A stretch of DNA of 64,000 bases from Curtobacterium sp. MCLR17_036 (lineage in GTDB: Bacteria > Actinomycetota > Actinomycetes > Actinomycetales > Microbacteriaceae), in assembly GCF_003234445.2 (NCBI RefSeq), contig NZ_CP126269.1, forward strand, positions 2,418,001 through 2,482,000. The letters run 5' to 3'. The notes under the pieces are model-generated. The model saw only the letters and a list, made by a program, of their open reading frames with translations, searched no databases and was not told the origin of the DNA. Position numbers and translations under genes: made by a program. Positions 8,118 through 54,554 of this stretch are shown here, in pieces. Numbering within the stretch: position 1 is the stretch's first letter; each line of letters begins with the position of its first letter.

Positions 8118-8165
8118 GACGGACAGGAGGCCCGTGGCGGCGTCGCCACGGGCCTCCTGTCCGTC
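8118..8165. terminator. Family-D palindrome/terminator after pyruvyl transferase
   Basis: Perfect 21-bp arms (core GGACAGGAGGCCCGTGGC and its complement) around a 6-nt loop. It lies 39 nt after the stop of the minus-strand pyruvyl transferase gene. The same core recurs at 17315, 22567, 48074 and 54495. There is no T-tract, as is common in high-GC actinobacteria. Confidence 0.75.
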
Positions 8166-17185: not shown

Positions 17186-17314
17186 CCGGGGCGTTCGCAC
17201 GCGCACCCCCTCCGCGACGGTCCACGCGACGATCGACTCGTGCGTCGTCGGGACGGTCGCGCCAGCCGGCGACCGTCAGCCGTCGGCGCTGGCGCGGCGC
17301 GACCAGGTGGCGGA

Positions 17315-17350
17315 CGGGAGGCCCGTGGCGCCGCCGCCACGCGCCTCCCG
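17315..17350. repeat. Family-D palindrome (degenerate copy)
   Basis: CGGGAGGCCCGTGGCG at 17315-17330 and the complement with one mismatch at 17335-17350. It lies between two convergent genes, as do most family-D copies. Confidence 0.65.
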
Positions 17351-17413
17351 GCCTCCACGGACCGCGTCCGCTGCCGCGCGCACCAGCTCCGCGACGATCC
17401 ACGTGACGATCAC

Positions 17414-20889: not shown

Positions 20890-22149
20890 TCAGCGCGTCG
20901 GCACGAGTCGGGCGACCGCCTCGAGGTGGTGCGTGTGCGGGAACAGGTCGAAGGCCCGCAGCGCCTCGAGCGTGTACCCCAGGTCCGCGAAGGTCGCGAC
21001 GTCGCGGGCGAGCGCGACGGGGTCGCAGGCGACGTAGACGACCTGTGCGGGTGCCAGTGCCGCGATCTGCTCGACGACCTGCCGACCGGCACCGGCGCGC
21101 GGCGGGTCGAGGACGACCGTGCCGGCGCGGAAGCGGTCCTGCTCGGCGCGCGAGGCGTTGGCCACCGTGTTCGCGAGCCAGCGGTCGACGCGCCCGGTCT
21201 CGGCGCGGGCGCCGATCCACTCGGACAGGTTCTCCTGCGCGTGCTCGGTCGCACGCCCCGCGCTCTCGACGCTCGTGATGCGCGCCTTCGGGCCGACGAG
21301 GTCGCCGAGCGCTGCGGCGAGCAGCCCGACACCGCCGTACAGGTCGAGGTGGGTGCCCTCGGGGTCGAGGCGGTCGCGGTCGACCAGGTCCTGCACGGCC
21401 TCGGTGAGCACGGTCGCCGCGGCGCGGTGCACCTGCCAGAAGCCGTTGTCGTCGACCTGGAACGTGCGCTCCCCGACGACCTCGGTCACGACCGTGGGCT
21501 TCTGCTCGTCGATGACGAGCCGTGCCCCCTCGGACCCGCTCGGCGCGAGGACGTCGATCACCGACGAGCCCGGCATCACCCCGCGGCCGAGCGGCGCGCT
21601 CTGCTGCACCGCGGCGCTCGCGAGCGGCAGGCTCGTGACGGGGATGACGGAGTGCGAACGGGCGGCGAACGGGCCGGCGGTGCCGTGCTCGTCGACGTGC
21701 AGCCGGACGCGGGTGCGCCAGCCGAGGCCGTTCGCGGCGTCGTCGCCGGGCGCCGCCTCGACGACGACGTCGTGGCCGAGCACCTCGGCGAGGTCCGTGC
21801 GGGCGAACCGCGCGAACGCGTCGACGAGGACGTCGTGCTTCAGCGTGCGCTGGTGGGCGAGGGCGATGTGCCCGAACTCGGCACCGCCCGGGCGCGTCTC
21901 GGGGTCGCGGTCGAGCGCGGCCTCCGGCCAGACGTGGTCGACGCGGTGCTCGCTCGGGGTGACGACGCTGACCGTGTCGGCGCGCCAGAACGACTTCTTG
22001 CGGTCCTCGGTCACCCGGGCGACGACGCGCTCCCCGGGGATCGCGTCCGACACGAAGACCACCCGTCCTTCGTGCCGTGCCACCGAGATGCCGCCGTGGG
22101 CGATCCCGGTGACGTCGAGTTCGAGCAGCGTGCCGACGGATTCACCCAT
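20890..22149 (-). CDS. TRAM-domain RNA (uracil-C5)-methyltransferase, TrmA/RlmD-like
   Basis: 419 residues: TRAM domain (about 1-60, LDVTGIAHGGISVARHEGRVVFVSDAIPGE), a central region, and a SAM-dependent methyltransferase domain with LDLYGGVGLLAAAL (SAM loop), VVLDPPRAGAGR and VYVACDPVALARD holding the nucleophilic Cys. The family methylates U at C5 in tRNA or 23S rRNA using SAM. Iron-sulphur Cys residues of E. coli RlmD are not seen. The start at 22149 lies 15 nt from the divergent maf start. Confidence 0.9.
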   Translation of the reverse strand: MGESVGTLLELDVTGIAHGGISVARHEGRVVFVSDAIPGERVVARVTEDRKKSFWRADTVSVVTPSEHRVDHVWPEAALDRDPETRPGGAEFGHIALAHQRTLKHDVLVDAFARFARTDLAEVLGHDVVVEAAPGDDAANGLGWRTRVRLHVDEHGTAGPFAARSHSVIPVTSLPLASAAVQQSAPLGRGVMPGSSVIDVLAPSGSEGARLVIDEQKPTVVTEVVGERTFQVDDNGFWQVHRAAATVLTEAVQDLVDRDRLDPEGTHLDLYGGVGLLAAALGDLVGPKARITSVESAGRATEHAQENLSEWIGARAETGRVDRWLANTVANASRAEQDRFRAGTVVLDPPRAGAGRQVVEQIAALAPAQVVYVACDPVALARDVATFADLGYTLEALRAFDLFPHTHHLEAVARLVPTR

Positions 22150-22163
22150 GGTGAGATGGTCCC

Positions 22164-22943
22164 ATGCGTCTGTACCTCGCGAGTACATCCCCCGCCCGCC
22201 GAGCCCTCCTCGCCCAGTCCGGGATCGAGCCGGTGCTCGTCTCCCCCGGGGTCGACGAGGACGCCGCCGGTGCCGCCGCCGCCGCGTCCCTCGGCCGTGA
22301 CCTGACCGGCCCCGAGCTCGTCTCGCTCCTCGCGGTCGCGAAGGCGTCGGCCGTCGCGGACGCCGCCGTCGCCGGCTCGCCGGTGGACGGCGTGGTGTTC
22401 GGCGGCGACTCCGCCTTCGAGGTCGACGGACGCCTGTACGGCAAGCCGCACGACCCGGCGGTCGCCCGGGATCGCTGGCGACAGATGCTCGCCGCCGGCG
22501 GCGGGACCCTGTGGAGCGGACACTGCGTCGTCGACCGGCGCCGCGATCTGGACCCGGCCACGGGACGGACGGGAGGCACGGGTCCGGCCCGCGCCGTGCC
22601 TCCCGTCCGCCCCCTGGTCACGTCGGCTGCCGGGGTCCCCGACCTGGGTGACGTCGCGCCCGGCGGTTCGGCGCTGGCCGCCGCGGGCGACCGCGTGGTC
22701 GCGGTCGACAGCGCGGTGCTCACCTTCGCCGACGACGTCTCGGCGGACGAGATCGACGCGTACGTCGCGACCGGCGAGCCGCTCGAGGTCGCGGGCGCGT
22801 TCACCATCGACGGGCGGGCGGCGGCGTACATCACCCGGATCGACGGCGCGCCCTCCGCCGTGATCGGCATGTCGCTGCCGGTGCTGCGGTCGATGCTCCT
22901 GCGGGGCTCCGGGATCGACTGGCACGACCTCTGGTCGCTGTAG
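22164..22943 (+). CDS. maf: Maf family nucleotide pyrophosphatase with an internal insertion
   Basis: 259 residues, about 45 longer than usual. The N-terminal LYLASTSPARRALLAQSGIEP, the GGDS motif and the GRLYGKPHDP segment are typical of Maf (dTTP/UTP pyrophosphatase, house-cleaning of non-canonical nucleotides). After GTLWSGHCVVD (residue about 130) the sequence runs through some 50 low-complexity residues before returning to family sequence at VAVDSAVLTFADDVS. The DNA of this insert contains a family-D palindrome (22567-22608). The frame is intact and the C-terminus is normal (GEPLEVAGAFTIDG, VIGMSLPVL), so the enzyme may still be active. Confidence 0.88.
   Translation: MRLYLASTSPARRALLAQSGIEPVLVSPGVDEDAAGAAAAASLGRDLTGPELVSLLAVAKASAVADAAVAGSPVDGVVFGGDSAFEVDGRLYGKPHDPAVARDRWRQMLAAGGGTLWSGHCVVDRRRDLDPATGRTGGTGPARAVPPVRPLVTSAAGVPDLGDVAPGGSALAAAGDRVVAVDSAVLTFADDVSADEIDAYVATGEPLEVAGAFTIDGRAAAYITRIDGAPSAVIGMSLPVLRSMLLRGSGIDWHDLWSL
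22567..22608. repeat. Family-D palindrome inside maf
   Basis: GGACGGGAGGCACGG at 22567-22581 and the exact complement at 22594-22608, loop of 12 nt. It encodes residues about 135-149 of Maf. Elsewhere in the window this palindrome occurs only after genes. Confidence 0.8.
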
Positions 22944-23008
22944 ACATCCACACTGTGCGGGGCTGGTTCTTTGTCGATGCCGGTCAATTCGTCCCGCGAC
23001 CGCACGAA

Positions 23009-23014
23009 TACGCT
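23009..23014 (+). promoter_or_regulatory. -10 hexamer TACGCT, carboxylase alpha subunit
   Basis: TACGCT with 8 nt to the ATG at 23023. Confidence 0.4.
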
Positions 23015-23022
23015 GATGTCTC

Positions 23023-24798
23023 ATGCCCCGTATCAGCAAGGTCCTCATCGCGAACCGCGGCGAGATCGCCGTCCGCATCATCCGCGCGGCCCGCGACGCA
23101 GGCAAGGCATCGGTCGCGGTCTACGCCGACCAGGACCGTGACGCCCTCCACGCACGCCTCGCTGACGAGGCCTACGCGCTGAACGGCACCACGAGCGCCG
23201 ACACCTACCTCGTCATCGACAAGATCATCTCGGTGGCCCGTCGCTCCGGCGCCGACGCCGTGCACCCGGGCTACGGGTTCCTGGCCGAGAACGCCGACTT
23301 CGCCCGCGCCGTCATCGACGCGGGGCTGACCTGGATCGGTCCGTCGCCGGAGTCCATCGAGCGCCTCGGCGACAAGGTCTCCGCCCGCCACGTCGCCGAG
23401 AAGGTGGGCGCACCGCTCGCTCCCGGCACCATCGAGCCCGTGCAGGACGTGTCCGAGGTCTTCGACTTCGTCGACCAGGTCGGGCTGCCCGTCGCGATCA
23501 AGGCCGCGTTCGGCGGCGGCGGCCGCGGGCTCAAGGTCGTGCGGGACCGTGCCTCGGTCGAGGAGCTCTTCGAGTCGGCCACGCGCGAGGCCATCGCGGC
23601 GTTCGGCCGCGGCGAGTGCTTCGTCGAGAAGTACCTCGACAAGCCGCGCCACGTCGAGACCCAGTGCCTCGCCGACGAGCACGGCAACGTCGTCGTCGTC
23701 TCGACGCGCGACTGCTCGCTGCAGCGTCGCCACCAGAAGCTCGTCGAGGAGGCCCCCGCGCCGTACCTGACCGACGCGCAGCAGGAGCGACTGTACGAGT
23801 CGTCGAAGGCGATCCTGCGCGAGGTCGGCTACGTCGGCGCCGGCACCTGCGAGTTCCTCATCGGGGCCGACGGCACCGTGTCGTTCCTCGAGGTGAACAC
23901 CCGCCTGCAGGTCGAGCACTGCGTGTCGGAAGAGGTCACCGGCATCGACCTCGTCCGCGAGCAGTTCCGGATCGCCGAGGGCGGCACGCTCGACTACTCC
24001 GACCCGGCGCCCCGCGGGCACTCGTTCGAGTTCCGCATCAACGGCGAGGACCCGGGCCGCAACTTCTTCCCCGCGCCCGGCCCCGTGCACGCGTTCAACG
24101 CGCCGTCGGGCCCCGGCGTCCGCGTCGACTCCGGCGTCGTGTCCGGCGACGTCGTGTCCGGCTCGTTCGACTCGATGCTCGCGAAGCTCGTCGTCACCGG
24201 CGCCACGCGCGCCGAGGCCCTGGAACGCTCGCGTCGGGCTCTCGCCGAGTTCGAGGTCACCGGCCTGCCGACCGTGCTGCCGTTCCACCGCGCGGTCGTG
24301 TCGGACCCGGCCTTCGCGACCCCCGACGACGAGCCGTTCTCCGTGTACACGCAGTGGATCGAGACCGACTTCCAGAACGACATCCCGGCGTGGAGCGGCT
24401 CCCCCGAGGAGCTCCCCGCCCCGGCCGCCCGCGAGAGCGTCGTCGTCGAGGTGCAGGGCAAGCGCATCGAGGTCACGATGCCGTCGATCGTCGGCGGTGG
24501 CGTGGCCGCGGGTCGTCGTCCCGCCGGTCCCTCCGCTCCCCCGAAGCGCCGCTCGTCGGCCGTGCGCGGCGGCGTCGCGGGGTCGGGCGGGTCCGTCGCC
24601 TCGCCGATGCAGGCCACCGTCGTGAAGCTCGCGGTCGCCGAGGGCGACACCGTGGTGAAGGGCGACCTGCTCGTCGTCCTCGAGGCCATGAAGATGGAGC
24701 AGCCCGTCCAGGCCCACAAGGACGGCGTCGTCACGAGCCTGAACGCCCCGGTCGGCCAGACGATCTCGTCCGGCCACGTGCTGCTCGAGCTCGCGTAG
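23023..24798 (+). CDS. accC: Acyl-CoA carboxylase alpha subunit (biotin carboxylase + BCCP)
   Basis: 591 residues, the size of AccA3/PccA of actinobacteria. Biotin carboxylase N-terminal domain with [21 protein letters not shown]-grasp domain with [13 protein letters not shown] and [12 protein letters not shown], a linker (about 465-520), and a biotinyl domain with [11 protein letters not shown], biotinyl Lys near residue 557. It carboxylates biotin with ATP and bicarbonate; AccD5/AccE at 15-16.9 kb transfer the group to acyl-CoA. BirA at 14.1-14.9 kb should biotinylate it. Followed by palindrome B1 that may terminate transcription. Confidence 0.94.
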
Positions 24799-24837: not shown

Positions 24838-24897
24838 GCACAACCAAAGTCACCCCGAACCGCACGATCGCGTGGTTCGGGGTGACTTTGGTTGTGC
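24838..24897. repeat. Family-B palindrome B1
   Basis: Perfect 24-bp arms (outer part GCACAACCAAAGTCACC) around a 12-nt loop, between the convergent carboxylase and AbiEi/DUF559-type genes. A related copy, B2, lies at 25981-26038. Confidence 0.85.
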
Positions 24898-24918: not shown

Positions 24919-25872
24919 TCATCGGAGTCTGTGGAACGTCCGAGTCGTCGTTGGCAGGCCTGCGGCGAGCAGGACTCCGCGCAATGTCTCGGCGTCGTTC
25001 GCCTCGTCCCAGCCGAACCGGCCGACGGAACGGACGTCGGGGTGCCGACGGAGTCGGTCCTCGCGACGCTTCTCCGCGACGACGACGTCGGCCGAGGACG
25101 TTCCCGCCGGGCGGAGGGCCGGGTCGGTGTACTTGCTCCGACCGTCGAACTCGAGGACCACACCGTGCTCGGGGAACCAGAAGTCGACCCGACCGATGAA
25201 CCCCGCCGCGTCGCGGAACTCCTGCTGCAGGACCGGCCGAGGGGCGCCGACCTCGTCGAGCGCGACCCTCGCCACCGATTCGCCCGGCGATCCGCTGGCT
25301 GCGTCCGCGAGCTCGATCGCCACCTCGGCCCGATGCTTGCCGTGGACGGCCTCGCGGCTCGCCAACTCGAGCCGGAAGGCCCGCGGGGTGACGCCGCACC
25401 GCAGCGCCACGTCGAGGGCGGGCACCGAGATGCGGAGCTCGTAGGAGATCGCCACGTCGACGACGGTGGTGAGCAGATCGGTGAGGGCCCGCCCGTTCGC
25501 GACCATCACCTGGGTGCGCAGCGTCCTGCCCCTGCCCGGACGCTTGCGGACGTGCGTGAGCGCCTGCGAGGTCGTGCGTCGGGGGTCGATGACCTCGACG
25601 ACATCCGGGAACTCACCGCGCCACGGTAACCCGTGCAGCGCCGCGGCCGAGGCGTGCGACACCACGAGCCGCCCGTCCAAGCGGTCATGGACGGCCTTGA
25701 TGCGAGCGATGTGTCGCTCGCCGGGAGTCGCGCGACGCCAGTCGGCGGCGTCGACGAAGCGCCCGGGCGTGAGCCGGACCAGTCGTCCCGCGTCGACCCC
25801 ACGACGGTGGTCACGACCGGTTCTGCCGGTCGGGTCCGCGGAACCGCCACGGATGATCGTGAGTCGTGTCAT
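24919..25872 (-). CDS. AbiEi-like N-terminal / DUF559-like C-terminal protein
   Basis: 317 residues. The N-terminal part (about 30-130: LVRLTPGRFVDAADW, RLVVSHASAAALHGLPW) resembles the helix-turn-helix and AbiEi region of type IV antitoxin-like proteins; the C-terminal part (about 225-317: IGRVDFWFPEHGVVLEFDGRSKY ... EKRREDRLRR ... GRFGWDEA) has the D-x(n)-EFDG-K pattern of DUF559/Vsr-like nuclease folds. No AbiEii toxin partner is adjacent. Function unknown; regulation or a defence or nuclease role is possible. The ATG at 25872 is chosen because upstream sequence is low-quality coding and includes palindrome B2. Bracketed by B1 and B2. Confidence 0.7.
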   Translation of the reverse strand: MTRLTIIRGGSADPTGRTGRDHRRGVDAGRLVRLTPGRFVDAADWRRATPGERHIARIKAVHDRLDGRLVVSHASAAALHGLPWRGEFPDVVEVIDPRRTTSQALTHVRKRPGRGRTLRTQVMVANGRALTDLLTTVVDVAISYELRISVPALDVALRCGVTPRAFRLELASREAVHGKHRAEVAIELADAASGSPGESVARVALDEVGAPRPVLQQEFRDAAGFIGRVDFWFPEHGVVLEFDGRSKYTDPALRPAGTSSADVVVAEKRREDRLRRHPDVRSVGRFGWDEANDAETLRGVLLAAGLPTTTRTFHRLR

Positions 25873-25980
25873 GCCGGTACGGTGCCCGGCCCACCGACGA
25901 TGTCCTCGGCTCGACCACTCACCTGTGGACACAGTGCATCGGATGCCCACTTGTGGACGGCTACCGGCCGTGCGGCCGCG

Positions 25981-26038
25981 CACAACCAAAGTGACCGCAA
26001 ACCGCGTGTTCGTGCGGTTCGAGGTCACTTTGGTTGTG
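25981..26038. repeat. Family-B palindrome B2
   Basis: Arms of 25 bp (outer part CACAACCAAAGTGACC) with two mismatches, loop GTGTTCGT. It follows the phosphomannomutase-type gene and precedes the AbiEi/DUF559-like gene. Outer arms match B1 almost exactly, inner arms differ. Confidence 0.85.
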
Positions 26039-26074
26039 GGAAGCGCAACGGCACCGCCCGGGGGCGGCCCGCGC

Positions 26075-48073: not shown

Positions 48074-48112
48074 ACGGGAGGCCCGTCACCAGCTGGTGAC
48101 GGGCCTCCCGGT
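48074..48112. terminator. Family-D palindrome after mtlD
   Basis: CGGGAGGCCCGTCACCAG followed directly by its complement; same GGGAGGCCCGT core as the other family-D elements. Placed just after the mtlD stop, so it may end the mannitol operon. Confidence 0.7.
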
Positions 48113-54462: not shown

Positions 54463-54494
54463 CCGCACAGGTCGCGTCCCGGACGCGACCACCT

Positions 54495-54542
54495 GACGGA
54501 CGGGAGGCCCGTGGCTGCGCAGCCACGGGCCTCCCGTCCGTC
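54495..54542. terminator. Family-D palindrome/bidirectional terminator
   Basis: A 48-bp perfect palindrome with core GGACGGGAGGCCCGTGGC, between convergent ptsH and the small gene at 54555. The cleanest copy of the family. Confidence 0.85.
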
Positions 54543-54554
54543 TCCTGGTCGCTC

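Follow-up and report, generated by a model that had tools for sequence, protein, structure and literature searches.

Among the closest described systems are the REPs, which are known to lie behind convergent and tandem genes and which, in other phyla, also occur within genes, more than half of these being dimers or groups encoding 20–30 residues (both points as given in the sections of Di Nocera et al, 2013, PMC3733652, on which we draw). In Rickettsia, palindromic elements (RPEs) are known in frame within enzymes, according to the part of PMC2229807 used here. What REP-like palindromes do for their hosts remains under debate, as selection on copies between genes is hard to separate from mutation or copying. 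A copy that has stayed in a coding frame for roughly as long as the genus has existed is a natural control, allowing a base-by-base comparison of silent with replacement sites.

Here we describe such a copy in the maf gene of Curtobacterium sp. MCLR17_036, within a window of 64,000 nucleotides (the whole stretch of DNA analysed, to which coordinates refer unless marked C1). We would put at about 0.6 the probability that maf holds, in frame, an ancient copy of a REP-like 3′-end hairpin restricted to the genus, kept for its nucleic-acid motif. In the open-access literature, no title or abstract start dealt with this family among the matches listed, either for palindromes, REPs or terminators of Curtobacterium and Microbacteriaceae or for silent-site constraint on in-gene REPs.

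The maf gene and a dispersed palindrome family

The 259-residue Maf of the initial annotation was confirmed, both the profile match and the fold placing it in the family (Table 1), with 4oo0 as the top Foldseek match. Confidence in the predicted model is modest (mean pLDDT 64.5), with residues 206–259 doubtful as well as the region of interest. There, residues 128–147, which overlap the codons of the palindromic element, have a pLDDT below 50 and are placed as a low-confidence loop between strands 114–124 and 169–174. On the basis of this low pLDDT the stretch encoded by the element is probably a flexible loop.

Table 1. Positions of maf, of the palindromic element within it and of further family copies in the window
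Feature	Position	Strand	Details
maf, Maf-like nucleotide pyrophosphatase	22164–22943	+	259 codons; PF02545, E 5.7e-35; best Foldseek matches are Maf structures
Full family element in maf	22551–22624	.	about 74 bp, about 25 codons (130–154); outer arms similar to those flanking other copies, GACGCGACCAC.. / ..GTGGTCGCGTC
Left 15-bp arm GGACGGGAGGCACGG	22567–22581	.	perfect complement of the right arm
Left core GGAGGC-N-CGG	22572–22581	+	codon GGA (22572–22574) in 59/59; codon NCG (22578–22580) in 58/59
Right 15-bp arm	22594–22608	.	perfect complement of the left arm
Right core CCG-N-GCCTCCCGTCC	22594–22608	+	codon CCT (22599–22601) in 59/59
Intergenic family copy	8118–8165	.	
Family copy	17312–17353	.	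right arm with one mismatch; doubtful 47-codon ORF called over the copy
Intergenic family copy	48075–48110	.	
Intergenic family copy	54485–54552	.	both outer arms

The 15-mer of the maf palindrome has 10 matches in the window at up to two mismatches, where 1.44 were expected and at most 4 were seen in 100 shuffles, and it occurs exactly 59 times in the genome (3,635,022 bases, one contig). Strict pairs of the form GGACGGGAGGC-N12–42-GCCTCCCGTCC number 129 and core pairs of the form GGAGGC-N20-GCCTCC number 192, while the reversed-pattern controls gave none for the 15-mer or for either kind of pair. Given these many copies against empty controls, a chance palindrome can be ruled out and the sequence belongs to a dispersed family, as had been proposed. 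Beyond the 42-mer the repeat continues into looser outer arms to a total of about 74 bp. In 84 genomic copies the inner pairs covary (pair 35:40, for example, is Watson–Crick in 0.87 of copies against 0.47 when shuffled), as expected of a hairpin.

The genomic context of 94 of the 129 strict copies was examined with a simple purpose-made codon-usage gene finder. Ninety-two of the 94 lie outside ORFs and 89 between convergent or tandem genes: 49 are in convergent gaps, 40 in tandem and 2 in divergent ones, 2 are within ORFs and 1 had no right neighbour called. Convergent gaps are enriched (49/91 copies compared with 5/39 gaps of at least 40 nt in the window; Fisher p 1.2e-5). For 65 of the 91 copies that lie outside ORFs and have a neighbouring 3′ gene end, this end is within 60 nt, and for 19 it is at 14 or 15 nt. 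The picture of a palindrome that usually follows genes, and that in maf is in frame with perfect 15-bp arms, is therefore well founded.

Runs of five T within 25 nt of either arm were found at none of the 94 copies and runs of four at one, and a scan around maf (22000–23100) gave no terminator-like hairpin followed by a U-tract. Since no U-tract was found, we regard the element as REP-like rather than as an intrinsic terminator, and the initial suggestion of a terminator in the strict sense is not supported. A transcription terminator or attenuator proper within the gene, the hairpin of which would lower maf transcription, is accordingly doubtful: the position of the family behind genes would suit it, but the missing T-runs, at maf and beside every copy examined, do not, and neither does the stability of the fold, which is not strongly kept (see below). 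A search of 22000–23100 for known RNA families gave five miRNA-family matches, at 21–26 bits against cut-offs of 60–100, and these were rejected. PF01797 (Y1/HUH transposase) had no match in the genome of Curtobacterium sp. MCLR17_036, the one genome of interest searched, with 5 of 14 control genomes positive, and a RAYT-borne REP was rejected for this genome.

Some further repeats were observed. Local clusters of three to four copies of the palindrome, spaced by about 130–280 bp and resembling REP clusters, occur at C1:2384945–2385423, 790339–790970 and 454627–455082. A separate palindrome family, GAGCAGAAGATGTCGAGTC, has 11 half-sites at up to three mismatches (0.01 expected) at 1490–2171, clustered between a gene ending at 1456 and a gene starting at 2199. 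Two hairpins with CAACCAAAGTNACC arms (24838–24897 and 25967–26052) flank an ORF on the minus strand (24919–25872) for which no Pfam match was found.

Homologues of the palindrome within other ORFs, a check proposed at the outset, came to one besides maf among the 94 copies examined. This copy (C1:595841–595882) is within a 410-codon ORF that has nothing in Pfam at E 0.001 and that, going by a motif, may be of signal-peptidase type. GGAGGC is at the same place in all 14 genus sequences examined for this ORF and its CCTCC partner in 11. The codon phase of the copy is 2 in the 11 sequences that were parsed (19 tried), compared with 0 in maf, so the palindrome DNA encodes different peptides in the two genes.

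The copy in maf and its history

Between its 15-bp arms the palindrome in maf has a 12-nt loop, and the stem reaches 24 bp with two mismatches. The outer arms of the element are loose here, as they are across the family. About 45 extra residues had been noted in this Maf; an insert is indeed present, though the family element accounts for only about 25 codons. The long loop has 57 residues here and 48 and 61 in G039 and G053, which have no element, and because these two keep long loops the rest of the loop is separate from the element.

Strict pairs are present in 65 of 66 genomes of the genus, at 8 to 185 per genome, with none in G039; in a family sample of 150, the 147 genomes that belong to other genera have none. 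The maf gene was fetched from 64 of the 66 (G074 and G080 were left out), and 59 of the 64 sequences match a single residue pattern of fixed length and frame, G-x8-PP-[VG], where the residues G and PP were fixed but not their codons. The exceptions are G013, in which the pattern is altered by a further insert, G019, G039, G053 and G023, where the contig ends. The maf genes of G070 and G071 are strongly diverged, yet are among the 59. That of G043 has a frame break near the gene start, which may be a sequencing error, the genome being rated 65% complete. Among 27 of the Mafs found in other genera, the stretch compared lacks GGAGG and CCTCC as a joint pair in 26; in the other, G127, it has both but there extended past a short loop.

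A tree of maf from which the loop had been removed places G039, G053 and G070/G071 beside the outgroup, and G019 further in as the neighbour of G069 (support 94). When G019 and G069 are compared, a 72-bp in-frame gap removes the entire 42-bp palindrome; no target-site duplication, as a MITE leaves on insertion, is evident by eye, and the site is one of loss, not gain. From the placement in the tree and this gap, the copy in maf was acquired early, close to the root of the genus, and has disappeared in one lineage or more. Occupying one site and one frame in 59 of 64 sequences, it is old and common to most of the genus, and a recent acquisition is not supported. The Mafs of G013 and G040, which are not sisters in the tree, carry a near-identical insert of about 60 nt within the element, which suggests recombination.

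Conservation of the DNA and of the encoded residues

The glycine codon of the element is GGA in all 59 sequences, a codon used for only 75 of the 1093 glycines that maf encodes outside the loop; likewise, the proline codon is CCT in all 59, compared with 2 of 639 proline codons elsewhere in maf. Changes were counted on a tree of 57 tips (G001 and G043 omitted), and the third positions of GGA, CCT and GTC did not change at all. For the control, 61 invariant four-fold columns outside the loop, the median was 10 changes and only 2 columns had none. For GGC and CCC, which are also core codons, 7 and 4 silent changes were counted. That the rare GGA and CCT serve as a programmed pause, slowing translation between the two halves of Maf, would agree with CCT being the rarest proline codon of the gene, but it is very improbable, as it would leave unexplained both the frozen silent sites of the common codons NCG and GTC and the agreement with the family profile described below.

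Mean changes at codon positions 1, 2 and 3 are 1.5, 0.9 and 8.0 outside the loop, compared with 3.3, 3.5 and 3.5 in 12 codons of the element. The ratio of third to first plus second plus one is 0.51 in the element and at least 1.18 in all 189 control windows of twelve codons, though third-position changes alone are equally low in 2 of the 189. In the codon NCG the first base changed 14 times (giving A, P, T or S) and the third once, and in the codon GNG the second base changed 12 times and the third twice. The free bases of these two codons are the family's own variable pair, 28:47. Changes in maf also follow the variability of the family at positions not fixed by the search (Spearman 0.47, p 0.04 for 20 inner positions; 0.48, p 3e-4 over 52 positions). 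The motif GGAGGC-N-CGG ... CCG-N-GCCTCCCGTCC has nine pairs, each kept in 83–100% of the 59 maf sequences, around one free pair. The contrary case, a segment conserved as protein in different DNA, is the reverse of what was found, the DNA being kept while residues vary.

The element could also be a passive hitchhiker, a single insertion tolerated like the rickettsial palindromic elements and persisting by descent under protein-level constraint only. Its probable position in a flexible loop of the model, its loss in G019 and the decay of the outer arms and inner loop of the maf copy are all compatible with this, but rare codons retained in 59/59 sequences while nearby residues change, and a position ratio under that of all 189 control windows, make it unlikely. 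The frozen key silent sites next to free residues argue instead for a function of the nucleic acid and name the bases to test. In our reading selection acts on the nucleic acid and the protein follows, and that in most of the related species examined the DNA of the hairpin is kept more strictly than the residues it encodes suggests that the hairpin itself does something. Against such a role stands G019, which lives without the element.

Pairing was less well kept than the motif. At 32:43 and 35:40, two of the variable inner pairs, pairing in maf falls below the shuffled level. Pair 28:47 is Watson–Crick in 0.22 (0.16 shuffled); with G–T counted it is paired in 0.69 compared with 0.55 shuffled, a value reached in 0 of 1000 shuffles, which ignore relatedness. 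G–T pairing would be tolerable in RNA of the maf sense strand. Compensatory pairing was therefore not found for the first two pairs and would hold at 28:47 only if G–T counts. When synonymous codons are drawn at random, the resulting folds are almost equally stable (mean z −0.54, with 6 of 59 beyond the 5% tail); strong selection for fold stability was not found, and overall stability is only weakly favoured. Given this, and with pairing lost from two of the three inner pairs that vary, the constraint is mainly on the motif.

The core might also be kept without selection on maf if dispersed copies repeatedly overwrote the one in the gene. Such gene conversion finds some agreement in the left-arm codon (ACG, CCT or CCG), which is labile, changing 18 times on the tree, and in the variant CCTGGAGGC, the form that the left arm takes in many maf copies, which is found elsewhere in the genomes of the genus: it is matched in 59 of 66, the maf copy included where it is of that form, with 23 occurrences in G041 and 14 in G005. 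In the genome of MCLR17_036 itself CCTGGAGGC with GCCTCCCGTCC occurs once, and the form GGCCTGGAGGC with CCTCCCGTCC was not found. Conversion should however bring in the paired inner bases of the family, and it is these, 32:43 and 35:40, that are paired less than shuffled in maf; the left-arm codon, moreover, still follows the tree (shuffled mean 28.6 changes, lowest 23). We consider it quite unlikely as the cause of the conservation, though with a labile codon and CCTGGAGGC pairs elsewhere in the genus, some exchange between the maf copy and other copies may occur.

Possible role and comparison with known systems

If the nucleic-acid motif is what has been kept, the element may have entered a flexible surface loop of Maf that tolerates extra residues, and the motif would be recognised as an RNA hairpin or as DNA, putatively by the same factor that would act on the copies behind genes. 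The likeliest effect would be on the maf mRNA, through 3′-end formation or through attenuation of transcription when translation lags; the motif may serve for recognition by an RNA or DNA factor, perhaps in attenuation or in the processing of mRNA ends. The amino acids encoded by the element would be a by-product of the constraint on the DNA. The broader proposal is tentative: a sequence-specific Curtobacterium factor might read GGAGGC-N-CGG...CCG-N-GCCTCC hairpins both at gene ends and in maf, with selection for a non-coding regulatory role possibly setting some of the amino acids of a housekeeping enzyme throughout the genus. The element in maf also points to a stretch of protein that owes its form to the DNA and not to the needs of the protein.

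The family resembles intrinsic terminators in being a GC-rich, palindromic hairpin 3′ of genes that is the same from both sides, and differs from them in having no U-tract and in the strong conservation of its primary sequence. With the RPEs it shares, as the initial annotation had remarked, a palindrome read in frame within the ORF of a conserved enzyme. The RPEs are 105–146 bp and lie in 19 reading frames, in the part of PMC2229807 consulted, whereas here the element is about 74 bp, short of the rickettsial 100–150 bp, and only 2 of 94 examined copies are in ORFs. Conservation at the DNA level across a genus, present in the maf copy, is not among the RPE features described in that part of the source.

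The GTAG- and CGTC-tagged REPs are, on the sections of PMC3733652 used, likewise high-copy palindromes behind genes, mostly convergent or tandem, some of which adjoin or supply stop codons and some of which are in ORFs. Those sections give them an unpaired GTAG or CGTC end tag and stems of 5–13 bp (GTAG) or 8–9 bp (CGTC); in the Curtobacterium element no such tag was seen by eye, the letters CGTC being within the paired arm, and the palindrome is 42 bp. REPs are also found with RAYT, in contrast to this genome with no Y1 transposase. In-gene REPs are already known in other phyla by the same account; what is unusual is the freezing of silent sites across the genus, and, unlike the REPs of those sections, one in-gene copy is common to most of the genus. 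The maf element belongs to a familiar class, the intragenic REP-like palindromes, and it is its state that is unusual: it is old, most of the genus has it, and within a coding frame it is kept as DNA.
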